Source: Nocardiopsis kunsanensis DSM 44524 (GTDB lineage: Bacteria > Actinomycetota > Actinomycetes > Streptosporangiales > Streptosporangiaceae). From it: a DNA stretch of 64,000 bases. Every line of letters begins with the position of its first letter. Position 1 is the stretch's first letter. The DNA lies in contig NZ_ANAY01000014.1 in the NCBI RefSeq assembly GCF_000340965.1, positions 1 through 64,000 on the forward strand. The letters are read 5' to 3'. A program made the position numbers and the translations under genes. The notes below the pieces were generated by a model. It was not told the DNA's origin and did no database searches. It was given only the letters and a program-made list of their open reading frames with translations. Shown here in pieces: positions 39,086-63,998 of the stretch.

Positions 39086-39862
39086 ATGAACCCCCGTCAG
39101 CGACGCGGCGTCCTGCTCATGGTGGTGGCCGCCACAGGCGCCGTGGCCGTGTTCGCCTCCGTCTTCGTGTACCTGCGCAGCCAGCAGGACCAGCTCGGCG
39201 AGTTCGCGACCGTGCTGCGCGTGTCCTCCGAGATCGAGGCCGGGCAGGCCGTCGGCGCCGAGCACGTGGAGCAGGAGAGCGTGCCTCGCATGTACTTCGA
39301 CGAGGAACTCTTCCTCAGCGACCTGGCCGACGTCGACACCCCCTCCGACCAGGAGCTCGTGGCCGCGACCCACCTGGAGGAGGGTTCACTCCTGCAGCGC
39401 GGCATGGTCCAGCCCCAGCCCACCCTGACCACCGGCGAACGCGAGATCGCGATCATGGTCAACGCCGAGACCGGTGTGGCGGGCAAGGTCCAACGCGGCT
39501 CGGTCGTGGACATCTACGGCACGTTCCAGGCCGGCGGGCGCGGCGACGCGTGCGCGGTACGGGTCCTGACCGAGGTCGAGGTGCTCGACATCGGGGAGCT
39601 GCGCCCGCAGGAGGGTCCCGACGGCGGCAGCACCGGGGTGGTCCCGGTGACCTTCCGTCTGGAACCGGGCTCGGCGCTGGAACTGGCCTACGCCGAGGAC
39701 TTCTCCACCAAACTCCGCCTGGCGCTGGTCAGTGCCGACGGGGGCGGCGACCCAGGCGCCGACGAGTTCTGCAGCGACGACTTCTCCGACCAGTTCTCCG
39801 GTGGCGGCGGTGGCGGCGGTGGCGACCAGCACCGCGCCCCGGCAGAGGAGGGGACGCCGTGA
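39086..39862 (+). CDS. cpaB: CpaB/RcpC-like pilus assembly protein (SAF domain)
   Basis: A 258-aa protein with one N-terminal membrane helix (VLLMVVAATGAVAVFASVFVY) and an extracellular SAF domain (ASEIEAGQAVGAEHVEQES, AATHLEEGSLLQRGMV) followed by the RcpC region (EREIAIMVNAETGVAGKVQRGSVVDIYG). The tail is a Gly-rich run. CpaB helps assemble the Flp pilus at the envelope. The ATG at 39086 follows GGAAAGAA; its stop overlaps cpaE. Confidence 0.85.
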   Translation: MNPRQRRGVLLMVVAATGAVAVFASVFVYLRSQQDQLGEFATVLRVSSEIEAGQAVGAEHVEQESVPRMYFDEELFLSDLADVDTPSDQELVAATHLEEGSLLQRGMVQPQPTLTTGEREIAIMVNAETGVAGKVQRGSVVDIYGTFQAGGRGDACAVRVLTEVEVLDIGELRPQEGPDGGSTGVVPVTFRLEPGSALELAYAEDFSTKLRLALVSADGGGDPGADEFCSDDFSDQFSGGGGGGGGDQHRAPAEEGTP

Positions 39863-41205
39863 ACTTCCGTGTACTGGCGGGCATGCCGACCTCCGAGACG
39901 GAGATGGTGCTGTCCGCGCGTTTCGACGAACTCTCCACCGCCGACCTGGTGGCCTCGCGGGGCAGCACCGCGACGCTGATCGAGGCCGCCGGGGAGTTCC
40001 CCGAACTCGACGTGGTCCTCATCCACCAGGACCTGGGCCCCGCCCCGGTCTTCGACGCGATACGCGACCTCTCGCACCGTCACCCCCAGCTCGCGGTCCT
40101 GCTGGTGTCCACGACGATGGACTCCGACACCTTCACCGCCGCGATGGAGGCGGGCGCCCGCGGGGTGATGCCGGCCGACTCCGGGATCGCCGAGCTGGAG
40201 ACCCGGGTGGCCAAGGCCGCCGAGTGGTCGCGCACCCTGCGCCGCCACCTGGAGTCGGCCTCCCTGGACCTGCCGGTCACGGGCGTGCGCGGGCGCGTGG
40301 TGACCCTCAGCGGCGCCAAGGGCGGTGTCGGTACCACCACGTGCGCGGTACAGCTGGCCATGGCCGCGGCGGCCAAGGACCGGGTGGTGTGCCTGGTCGA
40401 CCTGGACCTGCAGACCGGCGACCTGCCCGCCTTCCTCAACCTGCGGCACCGGCGCTCCATCAGCGACCTGGTCGAGGCCGGCGAGGACATCACCCCGGGC
40501 ATGCTGTCGGAGACCCTCTACGTCGACCCCCGCGGCCCGCACGTACTGCTCGCCCCCGAACACGGCGAACGCGGTGAGGACGTGACCGCACGGGCCGCCC
40601 GACGGGTGCTGACGGCGCTGCGTTCGCGCTACGAGCTGGTGCTGGTCGACTGCGGTTCCACGATGAACGAGGCCACGGCCATGGCGGTGGAGATGGCCGA
40701 CCGCTCCGTGGTCACCGTCACCCCGGACGTGCCCTCCACGCGGGGCGCGCAACGGCTGTCGGCGCTGTGGGAACGGTTGCAGATCCGTGCGCAGGACGAC
40801 GTGTTCACACTGGTGACCCGGCACAGCCGCAAGAACGAGATCCAGCCCGACTTCCTGCGCCGGCTGCTGGGCACACAGGTGTTGCGCACCCCGATCCCGG
40901 CCTCCTACCGGGGGTTGGAACCCGGGGAGAACAACGGCGACCCCACCAAGGTCACCGACGAGGGGCTGCGCAAGGCCTTCTCCCGGGTGGCCTCGGAACT
41001 GGAGCTGCTGGACGCGCCCGAGGGGACCTCCCCGGGTGCGGGCAAGGGTGCGGTCCCCACCCCGCCCGGGGGTAGCCGGGCACCGTCCGGGCCCATGCCC
41101 TCCACACGGGACGTGTCGGGGTTCCTGAACGCCTCGGCCGGGGCCGGGAGCCAGGGCAACGGGCGGGGTCCGGGACCGCACGGGGCCGGTGGGTCCGGTG
41201 GTTGA
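39859..41205 (+). CDS. cpaE: CpaE/TadZ-like ATPase
   Basis: A 448-aa cytoplasmic ParA/MinD-like ATPase that localises the Tad machine. An N-terminal atypical receiver-like domain (VVLIHQDLGPAPVFDAI, AMEAGARGVMPADSG) precedes the ATPase with deviant Walker A LSGAKGGVGTTTCAVQLA and LVDLDLQTGDLPAFLNL. The last 80 residues are Gly/Pro-rich. The GTG overlaps the cpaB stop by 4 bp, indicating coupling. Confidence 0.87.
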   Translation: MNFRVLAGMPTSETEMVLSARFDELSTADLVASRGSTATLIEAAGEFPELDVVLIHQDLGPAPVFDAIRDLSHRHPQLAVLLVSTTMDSDTFTAAMEAGARGVMPADSGIAELETRVAKAAEWSRTLRRHLESASLDLPVTGVRGRVVTLSGAKGGVGTTTCAVQLAMAAAAKDRVVCLVDLDLQTGDLPAFLNLRHRRSISDLVEAGEDITPGMLSETLYVDPRGPHVLLAPEHGERGEDVTARAARRVLTALRSRYELVLVDCGSTMNEATAMAVEMADRSVVTVTPDVPSTRGAQRLSALWERLQIRAQDDVFTLVTRHSRKNEIQPDFLRRLLGTQVLRTPIPASYRGLEPGENNGDPTKVTDEGLRKAFSRVASELELLDAPEGTSPGAGKGAVPTPPGGSRAPSGPMPSTRDVSGFLNASAGAGSQGNGRGPGPHGAGGSGG

Positions 41206-41638
41206 GCACGGGACGGACCGGCGCAAGGCCCTCCGTCGGGCCCGCTCGGACCACGGCGGGGTCGTCGTCGAGTTCGCCGCTGTCGTCCCGTTCCTGATGC
41301 TCGCCCTGGTACTGGTGTGGCAGGTGATTCTCATCGGGATCACCTCGATGTATGCCTCCCACGCCTCGTCCGAGGCCGCCCGCCAGGCCGCCGTCACCCC
41401 CGACGACACCGCACTGATCGACGAGGAGGCCCGCAAACGGGTCCGGCCCCCGTGGGACGGAGAGGACACGATGAGCGTCGACATCGTCGAACGCGACGGC
41501 GGACGGTTCGCCCGGGTGTCCTTGTCCATGCCGATCTTCCTGCCGGGCGCGGCCGGGCCCTGGGACGTGACCGGGGAATCAGCGGTCGTGCCGGAGGTCG
41601 CTCCGCTCGACGGCTCCGGAGGGGGGAACCGCGGTTGA
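41189..41638 (+). CDS. tadE: TadE-like pseudopilin
   Basis: A 149-aa TadE-family protein: HGGVVVEFAAVVPFLMLALVLVWQ has the prepilin-type GG/E+5 pattern before a hydrophobic helix, and the rest is a periplasmic domain (SSEAARQAAV, RFARVSLSMPIF). A dedicated peptidase should cleave it, but none is encoded in the window. The GTG at 41189 overlaps cpaE; a second GTG at 41198 is an equal candidate. Confidence 0.8.
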   Translation: MGPVVEHGTDRRKALRRARSDHGGVVVEFAAVVPFLMLALVLVWQVILIGITSMYASHASSEAARQAAVTPDDTALIDEEARKRVRPPWDGEDTMSVDIVERDGGRFARVSLSMPIFLPGAAGPWDVTGESAVVPEVAPLDGSGGGNRG

Positions 41639-41723
41639 GTACCCGAGAGCCCGACCGGTGGGGTCCTTCCGTCGCGAGCGGTGTGTCCAGTGGTGCTCTC
41701 GCAGATCCGGAGAAGGAGTCAGG

Positions 41724-42248
41724 GTGGGGTCCTGTCGACCGATGAGAACACGGCGGGAGCGCCGCCGGGACGAGGCGCAGCAGCAGGTGCTGCGCCGCAA
41801 GGCGTCCGTTGAGGGTCGGCGGCGGGCGACGGCGTGGGCCGGTCTCCGCCGAGCAGGCACCGGGCTCCGCAGGGGACCGGCACGGTGGCGCGCCGGGGGC
41901 AGCGGCGCCGACCGGGGCGGGCCGATGCTGGAATTCGCGGTCGTCTTCCCGATCCTGCTCGTGGTGGTCGTGGTCGCCCTGGAGGCCTTCTTCGCCTTCG
42001 TGGCCGTCGAACGCCTGGAGTCGGCCGCCCGGGCCGGGGCCCGTGTGGCCGGCGCCCAGCAGCTGGAGGGGGCCGAGTCCACCGCGCGCCGGGCCCTGCC
42101 CGTGTGGCTGGAGGATGCCGCGGTCACCAGCGGCACCAACGAGTCCGACGGGTTCTACGTGGAGGTCTCCCACCCGCTGCCGATCGTGTTCTCCTCGGCC
42201 GGGTTCGACCTGTCGCTGACCCGCCGGGTGGACATGCCGAATGTGTAG
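41724..42248 (+). CDS. TadE/TadF-like pseudopilin
   Basis: A 174-aa protein with a long basic N-terminus and the pilin-like segment RGGPMLEFAVVFPILLVVVV with Glu at +5, followed by a small extracellular domain (AARAGARVAGAQQLEGAE, DGFYVEVSHPLPIVF). TadE and TadF work together as minor pilins. The start is a GTG at 41724, 5 bp after AGAAGGAG; an ATG at 41742 lacks such a site. An 85-bp gap separates it from the first tadE. Confidence 0.72.
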   Translation: MGSCRPMRTRRERRRDEAQQQVLRRKASVEGRRRATAWAGLRRAGTGLRRGPARWRAGGSGADRGGPMLEFAVVFPILLVVVVVALEAFFAFVAVERLESAARAGARVAGAQQLEGAESTARRALPVWLEDAAVTSGTNESDGFYVEVSHPLPIVFSSAGFDLSLTRRVDMPNV

Positions 42249-42296
42249 GTGCAGGGGCACGCACGCCGACGACACCGAACGAGGGGGATGAGGACG

Positions 42297-43691
42297 ATGG
42301 GTCTCAAGGACCGTCTGGAGGAGGACCGCGCCTCGGAGGGGCGCGCCGACCGCGGCAGTGTCACGCACTGGCGGCGCCGGTTGCTGGCCGAGATCAACCT
42401 GGAGGACCTCACCCGCCTCACCCTCGCCCAGCGCCGGGTGCGCCTGGAGAAGGTCGTCGGGCACATCCTCACCCGTGAGGGCCCGGTGCTGGCCGAACGC
42501 GAACGGTCGGTACTGATCCGCCGGGTCGTGGACGAGGCGCTGGGGCTGGGGGTGCTCGAACCGCTGCTCGCCGACGAGACCGTCACCGAGATCATGGTCA
42601 ACGGCCCCGACAACGTCTTCGTCGAACGCGACGGGCGGATGCAGCGTGTGGACGCGAGCTTCAACGGCGAGGACCAGCTGTACCAGACCATCGACCGCAT
42701 CGTCTCGATGGTGAACCGGCGCGTGGACGAGTCCTCCCCCATGGTGGACGCGCGCCTGCCCAGCGGCGAGCGGGTCAACGTGATCATCCCGCCCCTGTCG
42801 CTGTCGGGGCCGGTGTTGACGATCCGGCGGTTCCCCAAGCCCTACCCCATCGAGGACCTGGTGCGGATGGGCAGTCTGGACTCTCCCACGGGGATCCTGC
42901 TGGCGGCGATGGTGCGGGCCCGGTTCAACATCGTGGTCTCCGGCGGGACCGGCAGCGGGAAGACGACGTTCCTGAACGCGTTGTCGGCGTTCGTGCCGCC
43001 GACCGAGCGCATCGTGACCATCGAGGACTCCGCCGAGCTGCAACTGATGCAGGAGCACGTGGTGCGTCTGGAGTCGCGTCCGCCCAACATCGAGGGCCAG
43101 GGGGCGATCGCCATCCGCGACCTGGTGCGCAACGCGCTGCGGATGCGTCCGGACCGCATCATCGTCGGTGAGGTGCGCGGTCCCGAGACCGTCGACATGC
43201 TGCAGGCGATGAACACCGGCCACGACGGTTCCCTGGTGACGGTGCACGCCAACTCCGCCGACGACGCCATCCACCGGTTGCAGACGCTCGCGACGATGGG
43301 TGAGGGGCTGATCCCCTACGACGCGCTGCGCGACCAGATCAACAACGCCGTCGACGCGATCGTGCACCTGGGCCGGTGGCCGGACGGGTCGCGCCGGGTG
43401 GAGGAGATCGCGGTGGTCTCCTCCAAGCGGCGCGAGGAGTTCCGGTTGGACTCGGTGCTGGAGTTCGAGGCCGAACCGATCGGACCCGACAGGAACGTGG
43501 AGGGCTCCTTCCGGCACCACCCGCTGCCGCGCCACATCGCAGGGCGGATCTACCACGTCGGCGAGGCGGTGCCCGCGACCTTCGGTGTGGCCGCCGGCGG
43601 GGGCGGCCCCGCGGGAGACAACGGCCCCGGCGGCGGCCCCGCGCAGGGTCCCCCACCGCAGCAGCCTCCCGGACGCCCGCCCGTGAGCTGA
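42297..43691 (+). CDS. cpaF: CpaF/TadA secretion ATPase
   Basis: A 464-aa hexameric type II/IV secretion ATPase that drives Tad pilus assembly. Motifs: VTEIMVNGPDNVFVERDG, Walker A VVSGGTGSGKTTFLNALS, Asp box ERIVTIEDSAELQL and Walker B MRPDRIIVGEVRGPE, plus the His-box NTGHDGSLVTVHANSADD. The C-terminal 40 residues are Gly/Pro-rich. The ATG at 42297 is chosen over the in-frame ATG at 42288, because a GAGGGGG sits 9 bp before the first but directly abuts the second. Confidence 0.92.
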   Translation: MGLKDRLEEDRASEGRADRGSVTHWRRRLLAEINLEDLTRLTLAQRRVRLEKVVGHILTREGPVLAERERSVLIRRVVDEALGLGVLEPLLADETVTEIMVNGPDNVFVERDGRMQRVDASFNGEDQLYQTIDRIVSMVNRRVDESSPMVDARLPSGERVNVIIPPLSLSGPVLTIRRFPKPYPIEDLVRMGSLDSPTGILLAAMVRARFNIVVSGGTGSGKTTFLNALSAFVPPTERIVTIEDSAELQLMQEHVVRLESRPPNIEGQGAIAIRDLVRNALRMRPDRIIVGEVRGPETVDMLQAMNTGHDGSLVTVHANSADDAIHRLQTLATMGEGLIPYDALRDQINNAVDAIVHLGRWPDGSRRVEEIAVVSSKRREEFRLDSVLEFEAEPIGPDRNVEGSFRHHPLPRHIAGRIYHVGEAVPATFGVAAGGGGPAGDNGPGGGPAQGPPPQQPPGRPPVS

Positions 43692-43731
43692 CCCCTCCCC
43701 CACATCCCCCGAAGGAAGGACGGAACCCCCG

Positions 43732-44682
43732 GTGAACTGGGAGATCCTGGCCGACTGGCGCATCTCGGCGATCCTGCTCGCCCTGGTGCTGGTGCTGGCC
43801 GTGGCGCTGTGGGCGCTGTGGGAGTTCGTCTCCGGCACCCAGCAGCAGCGGATGATCGCCGAACGCAGCGCCCTCGAACGCGCCGAGCACGAGGCGGCCG
43901 CCCCCATGGCCCGGTTGGAGGTGGCGCTGTTCCGCACCCAGTGGGGCGCACGCCTGCACCGGCGCATCGCGCGGTCGGGTGCCGACATCCGGCTGTCCAC
44001 GTTCGTGGTGGCGCTGTCGGCCGGGGCGCTGTCGGCGGTCGTGGTGGTCTGGCAGGTGCTGGCTCCCTTCTTCGGGCTGCTGGCGGCTGCCGGGGTGGCG
44101 TTCCTGTTCTTCTCCTACTTGAACCGGGCCGAGGCCAAGCGGCGGGAGGAGTTCACCGCCCAGCTGCCCGACCTGGCGCGGGTGCTGGGCAACGCCACCT
44201 CGGCCGGGCTGGCCCTGCCCACGGCCGTGGCTATGGCCGCCGAGGAGCTCGACGGCCCGGCCGGGGAGGAGCTGGCGCGCATGACCGAGTCGATGAAGCT
44301 CGGGGCGAGCTTCGAGGAGGCCGTCGCCGAACTGCGCGAACGGATGCCTTCCCGGGAACTCGGGGTGCTGCTGGCCACGCTCGTGGTCTCCTCGAGGTCG
44401 GGCGGTTCGCTGGTCACGGCGTTGCGCAACATCTCCTCGACCCTGGAGCACCGCAAGGAGACCCGGCGCGAGGTGCGCACGACCCTGAGCGAGACGACCA
44501 GCACGGTGTGGGCGTTGGGGGCCATGTCGGTGGGTGCGGTCTTCCTCATCAACTCGATCGAACCCGGGATCATGCGTGTGATGACCACCTCCGTGTCCGG
44601 GATCGCGGTGCTGCTGGTGGTGGCCGCGCTGTTCACGCTCGGGTTCGTACTGGTCAACCGGATCACCCGGTTCGAGCTGTAG
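43732..44682 (+). CDS. tadB: TadB-like platform protein
   Basis: A 316-aa integral membrane protein with a T2SSF domain (LPDLARVLGNATSAGLALPTA, SRSGGSLVTALRNISSTLEH) and TM helices at the N-terminus, at about 80-125 and at the C-terminus. With TadC it forms the inner-membrane platform of the Tad system. The GTG at 43732 has GAAGGAAGGA upstream. Confidence 0.87.
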   Translation: MNWEILADWRISAILLALVLVLAVALWALWEFVSGTQQQRMIAERSALERAEHEAAAPMARLEVALFRTQWGARLHRRIARSGADIRLSTFVVALSAGALSAVVVVWQVLAPFFGLLAAAGVAFLFFSYLNRAEAKRREEFTAQLPDLARVLGNATSAGLALPTAVAMAAEELDGPAGEELARMTESMKLGASFEEAVAELRERMPSRELGVLLATLVVSSRSGGSLVTALRNISSTLEHRKETRREVRTTLSETTSTVWALGAMSVGAVFLINSIEPGIMRVMTTSVSGIAVLLVVAALFTLGFVLVNRITRFEL

Positions 44683-44695
44683 GGGTAGGTGGATC

Positions 44696-45634
44696 ATGGT
44701 TGCGGTGTCGATGGGACAGTTCTCCGCCACGGCGGTGCCCCTCGGGCTGGCTGCGGCCGCCGCGGGGGTCGTGCTGCTGGCCGCGTACGCGGTGAACCTG
44801 CTGCGTTCCCGCACGCAGGTGACCGTGCAAGGACCCACGATCGGTTCCACCCCCCGGCCGGAACGCGGCTCGGAGGGGGTGTTCGTGCTGCACCGCCTCA
44901 CCGAGGCGCTCGGAGGCCCTCTGGCGCCGTCGGTCCTTCGGTCCTTCGGGGAGCGGCGCCGGTCGGCGGTCGCCGAGCGGATCGAGGCCGCCGGACGCCC
45001 CGACGGTCTCACCGTGGAACGTTACGTGCGGCGCCGCACCGGTGAGGTCGTGCTCTACGGCGGTGTGGGACTGCTGGTGCTGCTGGCCGGCCAGGTGTTC
45101 CTGGGCGTGGTGGTGTTCGCGTTCGTCTTCATGACCGACCTCAACCTGTACGTGCAGGCCCAGGAACGGGCCGACAAGGTGCAGTCGCAGCTGCCCGACT
45201 TCCTGGACGTGCTCGCGGTGACGGTGAGCGCGGGGATGTCGTTCCGCGCTGCGGTGGGCCGGGTCGCCGACTCCATGCCCGGGGTGCTCTCGGAGGAGTT
45301 CAAGCTGGCCCTGCAGCAGATGGAGCTGGGCACCTCGCGCCGGGAGGCCTTCGAGATGCTGCGCCGGCGCAACCGGAACGAGTCGCTGAGCAAGTTCGTC
45401 ACCGCGATCCAGCAGGCGGAGGAGCTGGGCGCGCCGCTGAGCCAGACCCTGGTCGACATCAGCCAGGACATGCGCCGCGCGGACGCGCAGTACATGCGCC
45501 GGAAGGCACAGCGGCTCAACCCCCGCGTGACGATGGTGACGGCGGTGACGCTGTTGCCCGGGTTGTTGATCCTGGTGGTCGGGTCGATGTTCATCGGTAC
45601 CGAGGTCGACCTCGGTCTCGTCCTCGGGGGCTGA
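44696..45634 (+). CDS. tadC: TadC-like platform protein
   Basis: A 312-aa partner of TadB with a T2SSF domain (LPDFLDVLAVTVSAGMSFRAA, QQAEELGAPLSQTLVDIS) and about four TM helices, one near the N-terminus and one at the very C-terminus (TLLPGLLILVVGSMFIG). It lies 13 bp after tadB and is the last gene of the operon, before a strong hairpin. Confidence 0.88.
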   Translation: MVAVSMGQFSATAVPLGLAAAAAGVVLLAAYAVNLLRSRTQVTVQGPTIGSTPRPERGSEGVFVLHRLTEALGGPLAPSVLRSFGERRRSAVAERIEAAGRPDGLTVERYVRRRTGEVVLYGGVGLLVLLAGQVFLGVVVFAFVFMTDLNLYVQAQERADKVQSQLPDFLDVLAVTVSAGMSFRAAVGRVADSMPGVLSEEFKLALQQMELGTSRREAFEMLRRRNRNESLSKFVTAIQQAEELGAPLSQTLVDISQDMRRADAQYMRRKAQRLNPRVTMVTAVTLLPGLLILVVGSMFIGTEVDLGLVLGG

Positions 45635-58532: not shown

Positions 58533-58775
58533 ATGAGTAAGTTTCGAGAGCTCTGGCTCAGATCCCGAACGTGCCTGGTGCCCCCACACCGGAAGAGCGA
58601 CCAGGGGGCCAGCATCATCGAGTACGCCGCAGTCATCATCCTGGTAGCAGCAGTGGCCGCGGCGGTTTTCGCGATTGGCCTCCCAGAGGAAATAAGAGGT
58701 GCGATCGACGGAGCAGTATCAGAAATATTGCGCGGCGGAGGAGACAGTGAAACACCGCCAGACAGCCCCTCATGA
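58533..58775 (+). CDS. flp: Flp-type type IVb pilin
   Basis: An 80-aa prepilin. KSDQGASIIEYAAVIILVAA carries the Flp class signature: processing after Gly25, Glu at +5 and Tyr at +6, then a hydrophobic helix. The tail is short and polar (GGGDSETPPDSPS). It would form the fibre of the Tad machine encoded 13 kb upstream. The ATG at 58533 follows GGAGGAG by 9 bp. It heads a four-gene group of envelope proteins. Confidence 0.82.
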   Translation: MSKFRELWLRSRTCLVPPHRKSDQGASIIEYAAVIILVAAVAAAVFAIGLPEEIRGAIDGAVSEILRGGGDSETPPDSPS

Positions 58776-58792
58776 TTCACATGTGATGCACT

Positions 58793-59818
58793 ATGAGCAC
58801 CAACCGCCAAAAAAATAGCACCCTTAACGTACTAGCCATATTCCCTCTCATCGCCTCCCTCTCAGGCTGCGTTGTTGCCCCTAGCGAAACATCTAACGAC
58901 GCCACATCCGACACTCAAGAGGGAAACCAAGAACAAGAAAAACCCGACAGCGAGAGCGAGAGCGAAATAATCGAAACCGCCCCGACAACTGCCACTAAAC
59001 TCGGCAGCAACCTAGAAATAAGCGTTCATCCACTTGAGCTAATTAACGGTGACTTTCTTCGACTCAACCTGACACTCACAAACAATTCAGGAAGTCATTA
59101 TATACTTCAAGATGCATTAAGCGACGGAGACGATCCATACTCAGCGAGCAATGCATCTCTTATTGACGCATCATCGCAAACTAGACACCTAAGCTACGAC
59201 CAAGAAAATGGATCTTGCTTCTGTTCCACCGCGGACAACGGAATCGACAGCGGGGAAACTGTCAACCTTTGGGTTATTTTCCCAGCCCCTCCTGACGATG
59301 TCGAATATATGACTGTGACCACTCCAATCACACCACCCTTTCTAGACGTGCCGATCCTTGAGTCATCAGAATCGATTGAAAATGATAGTATTTCTGAACC
59401 TGAAATTACCCCACTCACCATGATTTCCGATGACATTGAACACGAAACTGGACGCCAGGAAAGCGAAGGCGACGTAAGCATCCTGCTTTCTTCAGACGTA
59501 CTGTTTGACACAGGAAGCTCAGATCTCACGAATGACTCTCAGGAAATCATCGCCCAGGTAGCTTCAGAGATTGACCAATCCGAATCAAGCACCGTCCAGG
59601 TCGATGGCCATGCAGACAACACTGGTTCAGACGCTGTGAACACTCCGCTCTCTAAAGAGCGAGCCGAAGCTGTGGAAGAAGCCATCTCAGATCGAATTTC
59701 CCGAGATGGTGTATCTTTCGAAACTGAAGGACATGGCTCAGCAGACCCGATCGCCAACAACGAAACCGAAGAAGGCAAGAAAAGAAATAGGCGAGTCACT
59801 GTGACTTTTGAGAAATAG
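58793..59818 (+). CDS. AT-rich OmpA-domain lipoprotein
   Basis: A 341-aa exported lipoprotein: signal peptide with lipobox LSGC (Cys26), an acidic Glu/Ser-rich linker, a domain of about 120 aa with CFC (residues 70-200), then a C-terminal OmpA-like domain (VQVDGHADNTGSD, TPLSKERAEAVEEAI, EEGKKRNRRVTVTFE). The Asp/Arg sites for peptidoglycan diaminopimelate appear to be kept. It would tether to the cell wall. By hand count, 59041-59100 is 38% GC against 78% at 60421-60480, so this gene and the next look recently acquired or differently selected. It follows the Flp gene by 17 bp. Confidence 0.82.
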   Translation: MSTNRQKNSTLNVLAIFPLIASLSGCVVAPSETSNDATSDTQEGNQEQEKPDSESESEIIETAPTTATKLGSNLEISVHPLELINGDFLRLNLTLTNNSGSHYILQDALSDGDDPYSASNASLIDASSQTRHLSYDQENGSCFCSTADNGIDSGETVNLWVIFPAPPDDVEYMTVTTPITPPFLDVPILESSESIENDSISEPEITPLTMISDDIEHETGRQESEGDVSILLSSDVLFDTGSSDLTNDSQEIIAQVASEIDQSESSTVQVDGHADNTGSDAVNTPLSKERAEAVEEAISDRISRDGVSFETEGHGSADPIANNETEEGKKRNRRVTVTFEK

Positions 59819-59826
59819 ATTGACCG

Positions 59827-60345
59827 ATGAAAAACAAAAGAGCCGCCACGGCAATAACTTGCGCACTGGCGATGCTACCCCTTGCGCTGACAGCCAATGC
59901 GAGTGCAAGCCCTCAATATAAAGAACTCGAATCACTAGGAATAGGCGAAGGTATTTCCGAAGAGGCTGATGGCCTCAAGGTCGAAGCCAATTCTGCGGAG
60001 AGAAACGGAAATGGAAACCTAGTCTCCGTAACTTGGAGCGTACAGAACTTCACAGATGACTACGTGACTTTAACATGGCTCCACGACAGATCATACACAT
60101 ATTCTGGCTCCTACTTCTCTGCAGTGACTGCTACGGACGAAGATTCCGGAACACTTCATCATCCAGTCATGGATGGGAACAATGAGTGCCTGTGCTCAGG
60201 AAATACATCAAGGTACTTCAATCGAGATGTCCATCCAGATGGTCAACTAACGTACTGGTCTCTCTTCTCGACACCTAGTGATGTTGAGACCTTGACCCTG
60301 GAGGTCCCCGGGTTCGAGCCCATCGAGGACATCCCCATCGACTGA
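59827..60345 (+). CDS. Secreted paralogue of the lipoprotein's N-terminal domain
   Basis: A 172-aa exported protein: signal peptide ending near NASA, residue 27, followed by a single domain that matches the middle domain of the preceding lipoprotein. Shared features are a CxC pair (NNECLCSGNTS versus NGSCFCSTADN), a TPSDVETLTLEVPGFEPI-type ending (PPDDVEYMTVTTPI there) and a long N-terminal strand. Only the OmpA module is missing. It begins 8 bp after the lipoprotein stop and has the same low GC, so the two were probably gained together. The function is unknown. Confidence 0.72.
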   Translation: MKNKRAATAITCALAMLPLALTANASASPQYKELESLGIGEGISEEADGLKVEANSAERNGNGNLVSVTWSVQNFTDDYVTLTWLHDRSYTYSGSYFSAVTATDEDSGTLHHPVMDGNNECLCSGNTSRYFNRDVHPDGQLTYWSLFSTPSDVETLTLEVPGFEPIEDIPID

Positions 60346-60379: not shown

Positions 60380-61057
60380 TTGAGTACCCCCACCCCCGAG
60401 AGACACGGGGACGCCCGCGGCCCCTCCGGGCTCCCTGGCGCTTCCGAGCGGCCGAGCCCCCGCCCGGGTTTCCTTTCGCGTTCCCGCATGCTCCTCGTCC
60501 GCGCACGCGCACGTGCCGGAGGCGACCGAGCCGGCCGGAACTCCGACTCCGGAGCAGCGATCCTCGAGACGGCTGCGGTCCTCATTCTCGCGGCGGCCAT
60601 CATGGTGGCCGTCTACCAGCTCGAACTCAGCCGGACCTTCAACAACGCCGTCCGTCAGATGGTCTGCCTCGTCGAGGGCCCCGAGTGCGGTGAGTCCTGG
60701 ACCGAGGAGGACCGCCCCGAGGAGCCCGAGAGCTACGACGGGGCGAGCGGGTCCGACAACTCCTCCGAGAACGAGTCCATCGCCATGAGGATGGCCAAGG
60801 ACCACGGCTGGGAAGGCCAGGAGTGGAGCTGTCTCGACAACCTCTGGAGCAACGTCTCCGACTTCGAGCGGTCCACGGACGGCGACACCCGAGGCATCCC
60901 GGGCTACGATCCCGAGGTCCACGGCGATCATCCGCCGCCCGACGACTTCGAGGCCAGCGCGAGTTCCCAGGTCTCCTGGGGGCTGGACTACATCTCCGCT
61001 GAGCACGGGTCCCCGTGTGTGGCGTGGGCCCAGTGGGAGAACTCCCGCTCCTACTGA
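60380..61057 (+). CDS. Prepilin fused to a transglycosylase-like domain lacking its catalytic Glu
   Basis: A 225-aa protein. A basic N-terminus leads to a pilin-type segment (SDSGAAILETAAVLILAAAI, 56-75) with processing after Gly58 and Glu at +5. A Glu/Ser/Asp-rich spacer follows, then a C-terminal domain (132-225) with WSCLDNLW, RGIPGYDP, SQVSWGLDYI and GSPCVAWA. These are the landmarks of actinobacterial SLT-like transglycosylases (CLDxLWxRESxW, GIPQ, WGLxYI, GSPCxAW). The catalytic Glu position is Val159 (LWSNVSDF) and GIPQA is GIPGY, so it is probably inactive and may bind glycan. The TTG at 60380 follows GGAG by 6 bp. Confidence 0.72.
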   Translation: MSTPTPERHGDARGPSGLPGASERPSPRPGFLSRSRMLLVRARARAGGDRAGRNSDSGAAILETAAVLILAAAIMVAVYQLELSRTFNNAVRQMVCLVEGPECGESWTEEDRPEEPESYDGASGSDNSSENESIAMRMAKDHGWEGQEWSCLDNLWSNVSDFERSTDGDTRGIPGYDPEVHGDHPPPDDFEASASSQVSWGLDYISAEHGSPCVAWAQWENSRSY

Positions 61058-63251: not shown

Positions 63252-63998
63252 TCACAGGGAGCCTCCGGGGTGGCTGGGGCGCACGGACTCGTACGGCCCG
63301 GCGCCCCCGATGGACCGCTCGCTCTGGCCGGTGTGCGTGGTGCCGTTCCTCCACAGTCCGCCGATGGGCGCCCCGCAGTCGGAGCTGTTGTAGTTGAAGC
63401 TCACGCTGCCCGACATCGCGTCGACGGTGGTGACGGTCGATCCCTCCGGCCCCAGGCTGGAACCGCCTCCACCGCCGGCTCCGCCGTTGAGCACGGTCAG
63501 CTCCGCGGAGCCGCCACCGCCTCCGCCCTGGGCCCCGCCACCGCCACCACCACCTGCGGCACCGAGGTCCTCGTCGTCGGAGGGGCCGTCGGCCCCGTCC
63601 CCGCCCGCGCCACCGCTGCCGGGTGCTCCGGGGAGCCCCGCGTCCGTGGTGTCCCCGCCGGCACCGGGTGCATCGGTGGTCGCGCCTGCGCCGCCTCCCC
63701 CGAGCCCGCTGTTGTCCGAGTGGGGCCGGCCGTCCTGGCCGGTCCGACCGCCGTCTCCCCCGTTGCCTCCCGGATGGTAGGTGCCGGAGGATCCGTCATG
63801 GCCGCGGCCGGCGCCTCCACCGCCACCCGCGGCGATGATCAGGTCCTGGCCCGCGCGGGTGACCACGGTCGCGCCGCCGCCACCGCCACCGCGCAGTGTC
63901 TGGAGCCCGGAGCCGCCGGAGGTCCCTCCGTCGCCGCCGTCGCGGCCGTCGCCGCCGGTGGCCCCTCTGCCCCCGAATGCGGTCCCGGCGGTGTCCAC
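63252..63998 (-). CDS. Glycine-rich protein, 5' end beyond the window
   Basis: At least 248 residues, the C-terminal part of a longer protein running off the right edge. It is dominated by Gly with Ala, Asp and Ser (AAGGGGGAGRG, GAAGGGGGGGAQGG) and has recurrent strands such as ATVVTRAGQDLIIAAGGGG and AELTVLNGG, like bacterial glycine-rich domains related to the ALK/LTK GR fold. The C-terminus has one Cys (SSDCGAPIGG). It is probably secreted or cell-surface, but the signal peptide is not in the window. Its 3' end is near a strong terminator. Confidence 0.6.
   Translation of the reverse strand: MDTAGTAFGGRGATGGDGRDGGDGGTSGGSGLQTLRGGGGGGATVVTRAGQDLIIAAGGGGGAGRGHDGSSGTYHPGGNGGDGGRTGQDGRPHSDNSGLGGGGAGATTDAPGAGGDTTDAGLPGAPGSGGAGGDGADGPSDDEDLGAAGGGGGGGAQGGGGGGSAELTVLNGGAGGGGGSSLGPEGSTVTTVDAMSGSVSFNYNSSDCGAPIGGLWRNGTTHTGQSERSIGGAGPYESVRPSHPGGSL

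Follow-up and report, generated by a model that had tools for sequence, protein, structure and literature searches.

Lytic transglycosylases of the VirB1 type are wall hydrolases that serve pili or transporters. In a Gram-positive bacterium, pilus extrusion is aided by a separate hydrolase, LytF (PMC13192262). For Tad pili, unlike for other appendages, a structure paper from 2025 remarks that reports of an associated peptidoglycan hydrolase or lytic transglycosylase are lacking (PMC12307814), and our literature search, which covered few subscription papers and no supplementary datasets, found no earlier report of Tad-linked wall hydrolases. According to the part of PMC8179133 considered here, modular type IV pilins are defined by the class III motif IPR012902, and their modules are adhesive or of other kinds; in Streptococcus sanguinis, PilB and PilC have a functional module joined to a pilin moiety, and the grafting of modules onto pilins is described as a general bacterial strategy. 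S74 and M26 peptidases are named in this part of the paper, and no peptidoglycan hydrolase is mentioned in it.

Here we describe a gene of Nocardiopsis kunsanensis DSM 44524 that encodes a prepilin-like carrier fused to an SLT-like domain. Its product shares with PilB and PilC (PMC8179133, same part) the grafting of a module onto a pilin part, but in contrast to the modular type IV pilins its carrier is linked to Tad, and the heads found on this carrier are peptidoglycan hydrolases or, as in the present case, a dead one. Modular pilins and a separate pilus-aiding hydrolase were known; a peptidoglycan hydrolase tied to Tad is stated to be unreported (PMC12307814). Our preferred reading, to which we assign a probability of about 0.6, is that of a Tad-dedicated modular pilin-like protein with a wall-remodelling enzyme, the head of which lost catalysis in Nocardiopsis and was retained. 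The window, i.e. the whole stretch of DNA analysed (64,000 nucleotides), contains the following features of the Tad locus, the satellite gene cluster and the fusion gene:

39086-39862 (+): RcpC/CpaB of the Tad locus (PF16976)
39859-41205 (+): TadZ-like ATPase (PF13614)
41189-41638 (+): TadE-like minor pilin (PF07811)
41658-42248 (+): second TadE-like minor pilin (PF07811)
42249-43691 (+): TadA/CpaF motor ATPase (PF00437, E 1e-67)
43732-44682 (+): TadB platform protein (PF00482)
44696-45634 (+): TadC platform protein (PF00482)
58533-58775 (+): Flp/DUF4244-like small prepilin (GASIIEYAAVIILVAAVAAAVFAIGLP), start ATG 58533 with GGAG Shine-Dalgarno sequence; first gene of the satellite cluster
58793-59818 (+): OmpA-family lipoprotein, predicted to bind peptidoglycan
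59827-60345 (+): secreted protein resembling the OmpA lipoprotein's N-terminal half, with no OmpA domain (by sequence reading only)
60380-61057 (+): fusion gene (225 amino acids) for a prepilin-like carrier joined to an SLT-like domain in which the catalytic residues are replaced
60380-60553 (+): leader peptide of 58 amino acids, C-terminal end ...NSDSG, likely cut after Gly58 by prepilin peptidase
60554-60640 (+): mature N-terminal hydrophobic helix A59AILETAAVLILAAAIMVAVYQ, Glu at +5
60665-60769 (+): conserved signature of the carrier, made up of the CX6C motif (CLVEGPEC) and the acidic/proline linker SWTEEDRPEEPE
60770-61054 (+): SLT/aggregation-promoting-factor-like domain
60854-60856 (+): Val159 in place of Glu
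60902-60904 (+): Gly175 in place of Gln

The fusion gene starts with TTG 60380, which is preceded by a GGAG Shine-Dalgarno sequence. A TTG with a GGAG-type Shine-Dalgarno sequence occurs at the same place in 30 of 30 genus orthologues examined, and ATG 60488 was discarded as the start in view of this conservation. Counted from the TTG, the predicted processing site is G58|A59, followed by Glu63 (+5), C96 and C103, and the domain landmarks are CLDNLW (151-156), GIPG (172-175), WGLDYI (200-205) and GSPCVAW (210-216). A sequence-only reading of this DNA had already noticed the reading frame and these landmarks, all of which are present, with the start now backed by the Shine-Dalgarno sequence. 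Within the genus, taken here as Nocardiopsis sensu GTDB, the gene was detected in 37 of 40 genomes (E <= 1e-20) with no internal stop, relatives of the window protein being encoded in N. xinjiangensis, N. salina and N. coralli among others; 30 fusion sequences were extracted for residue counts. Across the family, the carrier half (helix, CX6C and linker) was found in 69 of 343 genomes, and at the genus level in 18 of 68. This distribution rules out a chance ORF. In a class-wide sample, strong-scoring carrier matches were confined to this GTDB family; the scan outside of it gave weak matches only, in one other family (f18), where part of the matched proteins were long and prepilin-like.

The Tad core at 39086-45634 comprises TadA, a split platform (TadB/TadC), RcpC, TadZ and TadE. 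The fusion gene of Nocardiopsis lies outside this core operon and closes a group of four closely spaced genes for the Flp-like prepilin, the OmpA lipoprotein, the related secreted protein and the fusion itself. In all 29 genus genomes that have tadA and the fusion on one contig, the latter is located 3' of tadA on the same strand, the starts of the two genes being 11.6-38.1 kb apart as calculated by hand from their positions. The near-complete genome G176, assembled in two contigs, has neither a tadA match nor the fusion. In other genera, the fusion is normally the last gene of the Tad operon, in the order RcpC, TadZ, TadE, TadE, TadA, TadB, TadC, histidine kinase, response regulator, Flp, TadG-like protein, OmpA lipoprotein and fusion; some of these parts went undetected in some loci. 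The OmpA-family lipoprotein gene adjoins the fusion there as well. Outside Nocardiopsis, every locus that is not truncated at a contig end has the fusion after the Tad core, the TadG-like gene and the OmpA gene on the same strand, except for G063, where the NlpC carrier is encoded apart from the Tad locus and a stop interrupts its matched frame. On the computational level, the linkage of the fusion family to Tad is established. The two genes between the Flp-like gene and the fusion in the window (58793-60345) are low in G+C, with 48% and 50% (GC3 0.46 and 0.51) in a region of 70% G+C.

The N-terminus of the fusion carries a class III signal with a small residue at -1, a hydrophobic stretch and Glu at +5. 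In an alignment of 20 diverse carriers, Glu63, C96 and C103 are invariant and Gly at -1 is nearly so, which upholds the prepilin-type N-terminus proposed earlier. TadE/TadF minor pilins and Flp of Tad (T4c) pili share with the fusion the locus, a prepilin-type site with Glu at +5 and a short N-terminal helix, whereas the C-terminal wall-enzyme domain and the CX6C linker set it apart. A Pfam search of the fusion gave no matches at E values up to 1, including none to TadE, Flp or any pilin family, and we therefore term the protein pilin-like instead of filing it as a TadE or Flp pilin. Probably it is processed as a prepilin and incorporated into the pilus or its base. Its leader is long, however, cleavage is only predicted, and the sole prepilin peptidase gene that we found in the genome (A24 family, PF01478) is unlinked to the Tad locus, at position 211605 of another contig (C7). 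Taken together with the missing Pfam pilin match, this would agree with an uncleaved signal anchor, that is, an ordinary membrane-tethered wall enzyme, dead in the present case, which lies near Tad by coincidence. We consider this account improbable, given the conservation at +5 and -1 in diverse carriers and the strong Tad-operon synteny outside Nocardiopsis. Large conserved prepilin-like proteins of about 440-530 amino acids also adjoin Tad operons (L042:13757-15358, minus strand; L052:12781-14109, plus strand), the former with no Pfam family match.

The head on the carrier differs between genomes and is either SLT, NlpC/P60 or M23. The NlpC/P60 heads match PF00877 with E values down to 5e-28, and the M23 heads, which occur in tandem with an NlpC carrier, match PF01551 with E values of 2e-27 and 6e-30; the catalytic residues (Cys-His-His in NlpC, HxxxD/HxH in M23) are present. 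Mapped onto a TadA tree of 23 genomes, the computed head types require 6 changes, the minimum being 4. A search for homologous fusions, which the sequence-only reading had recommended, thus uncovered a carrier bearing apparently intact SLT, NlpC/P60 and M23 domains. That reading had treated the fusion as an isolated oddity: dead it is, but rather than standing alone it belongs to a Tad-linked family, in which it makes up the dead branch and the remaining members look catalytically intact. The Tad locus, the other hydrolases on the carriers of relatives and the Gln to Gly175 exchange had escaped notice.

The TadG-like partner varies too. In the SLT-carrier genomes examined, including the source genome, TadG-like proteins possess a C-terminal domain of the HxxGxAxD...DHIHxS type; those of NlpC- and M23-carrier genomes are bare, without this domain. 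In relatives, the HxxGxAxD domain resembles PDB chain 9flh by sequence (E 5e-9). The TadG-like protein of the source genome is encoded beyond the window, about 13.6 kb downstream of the fusion (contig positions 74006-75253, L054:14007-15254), and its C-terminal HxxGxAxD...DHIHLA domain looks catalytically intact. The TadG-like protein of G063 (L061:9020-10105, plus strand) has an intact C-terminal SLT/APF domain (NF052397, 123.8 bits), the separate carrier in this genome being of the NlpC/P60 type.

According to our proposal, the prepilin-type N-terminus would sit in the membrane, with prepilin peptidase as its probable processing enzyme, and the CX6C linker would hold the cell-wall enzyme outside the membrane. 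The intact heads of most other genera may then cut the wall, opening or trimming the thick Gram-positive layer locally such that the Tad pilus can pass. VirB1-type enzymes and LytF (PMC13192262) would share this probable job, the passage of a trans-wall filament; they are separate enzymes, whereas in the fusion the hydrolase is joined to a pilin-like subunit. For the question of how Tad pili cross the wall, the fusion family offers a genetically hard-wired candidate, encoded at the end of Tad operons and available with three alternative enzyme types.

The chief rival explanation regards the carrier as an export tag, by which Tad delivers wall-degrading enzymes or polymorphic toxins to neighbouring cells; the Nocardiopsis head would then be a retired effector or a receptor-binding piece. 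Two proteins encoded near Tad loci bear on this, each with a prepilin-like N-terminus and a similar CX6C motif: one is fused to a pretoxin HINT and an Ntox28 domain (L042:16146-17726, minus strand), as if the Tad-type carrier bore polymorphic toxins too, and the other to a calpain-type protease domain (PF00648; L043:2693-4072, minus strand). A Tad-like apparatus is, moreover, needed for contact-dependent prey killing by Myxococcus, with local loss of peptidoglycan (PMC8460266). The fusion, however, occurs as one conserved gene of the operon, no immunity gene was recognised beside it, and its heads, with the few changes on the TadA tree, switch slowly and are not polymorphic. We therefore regard effector export as unlikely, and keep to the reading of a Tad-dedicated wall-remodelling subunit.

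The identity of the C-terminal domain was inspected on the levels of profile and fold. The NCBIfam model NF052397 (aggregation-promoting factor C-terminal-like) aligns to the fusion over all of its positions (1-80 of 80; E 2e-8), with 34.5 bits, which is under the curated cut-off of 40; Glu-retaining homologues score above this cut-off (92.5 and 118.9 bits). The AlphaFold model of the window protein has good local confidence over most of the C-terminal domain (means of 10-residue blocks 79-97, one block 54). Its best VIA-align matches belong to the lysozyme/GH23 superfamily, although at modest Z values below 8: the GH23 chitinase 3w6e (Z 5.8, rmsd 4.1, 97 residues aligned) and phi29 gp13 (3csq, Z 5.3). 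The Glu-retaining homologue of N. potens matches MltE (Z 7.8) as well as MltF, Slt and goose lysozyme, again with modest Z. For the window model, GH23/lysozyme folds came up in this VIA-align second look only; a plain Foldseek comparison with the PDB gave no significant match, an absence that was not counted as evidence, and PDB sequences likewise yielded no match to the fusion in a profile search. Because of the Z values, we base the fold claim on profile and fold jointly, and on this computational basis the domain appears SLT/APF-like, as had been supposed from its landmarks; the structure prediction that had been suggested as a check points the same way, at modest Z. By its profile match below the cut-off, it would be the same domain as in the NF052397-type APF C-terminal-like/SLT proteins. 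Two intact-looking secreted paralogues of this type, encoded on contig C18 of the same genome, keep the Glu and Gln; the fusion has neither and sits on a pilin-like carrier.

The column of the catalytic Glu, occupied by Val159 in the window protein, holds M (10), V (8), I (6) or T (6) in the 30 genus orthologues, and the Gln of GIPQ is replaced by Gly (Gly175) in all of them. Both residues are kept in 12 of 12 SLT fusions examined from other genera. A displaced Glu was rejected, since homologues that keep the residue align it exactly at Val159; the missing Glu noticed in the single sequence thus extends to the whole genus, and in no homologue has it moved elsewhere. Both residues expected of a working lytic transglycosylase, the catalytic Glu and the GIPQ Gln, are missing from the fusion. 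In the tree, the genus forms one side of a branch with a support of 100/99, so that one loss event suffices; computationally, the catalytic residues were lost once, in the lineage of Nocardiopsis.

Could the domain still be an enzyme, with the acidic residue 163 or another one substituting for Glu? All 30 genus members have an acidic residue at position 163 (D 27, E 3), compared with N 8 and D 4 in the outgroup. Asp at 163 also occurs in homologues that keep the Glu, so it is no clear replacement, and the Gln of GIPQ is gone too, which makes a surviving activity highly improbable. The sequence-only reading went further in inferring a pilus tip or subunit that binds peptidoglycan or glycan and does not cut it. 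A place at the pilus tip and peptidoglycan binding found no support in the analysis. As other motif positions besides Glu have changed, with the Gln replaced, Pro174 variable and Tyr204 turned into His in 10 of 30 sequences, this binding role is not established.

A further explanation is decay, i.e. that the Nocardiopsis domain has been under relaxed constraint since catalysis was lost and is just tolerated. By approximate NG86 estimates, which are biased and unreliable at this high G+C, the median dN/dS in the genus is 0.64 for the dead SLT domain versus 0.23 for the carrier helix, the pattern being reversed in the catalytic outgroup (0.23 versus 0.47); relaxed constraint is therefore possible, and the free variation of the Glu position among M, V, I and T would fit as well. 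On the other hand, several close pairs have dN/dS of 0.1-0.2 in the dead domain, and the fusion has been kept without stops across the genus. The fold positions C151, L152, W156, S160, G172, I173, Q197, W200, G201, I205, P212, C213, A215 and Y225 are invariant, and Gly175, His181, Gly182, Pro187 and Trp144 are fixed genus-wide. These fixations suggest a new role or constraint rather than only decay, which we hold to be an improbable account on its own.

Returning to the reading of a retained pilin-like subunit, we propose that in the Nocardiopsis ancestor the SLT head would have lost its catalytic Glu and Gln once and that new constraints would then have preserved it. Most likely it would serve as a structural or glycan/wall-binding head that does not cut and may position or dock the Tad assembly. 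The cutting itself would fall to different enzymes, such as the TadG-like protein with its intact-looking C-terminal domain. The wider view, namely that actinobacterial Tad pili have built-in interchangeable hydrolases (SLT, NlpC/P60, M23), borne by the TadG-like protein as well as by a dedicated pilin-like subunit, with the head of one genus now fixed as a non-catalytic binder, a pseudoenzyme pilus component, is put forward tentatively, at slightly below even odds. With its enzyme inactivated a single time and the part itself preserved, the Nocardiopsis branch amounts to a natural experiment, and Thermobifida, Nocardiopsis potens or Nocardiopsis xinjiangensis would allow a direct test of the wall-crossing question. 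At the window end, a very glycine-rich ORF (63252-63998, minus strand) follows, and a related ORF is found in the nearest relative.
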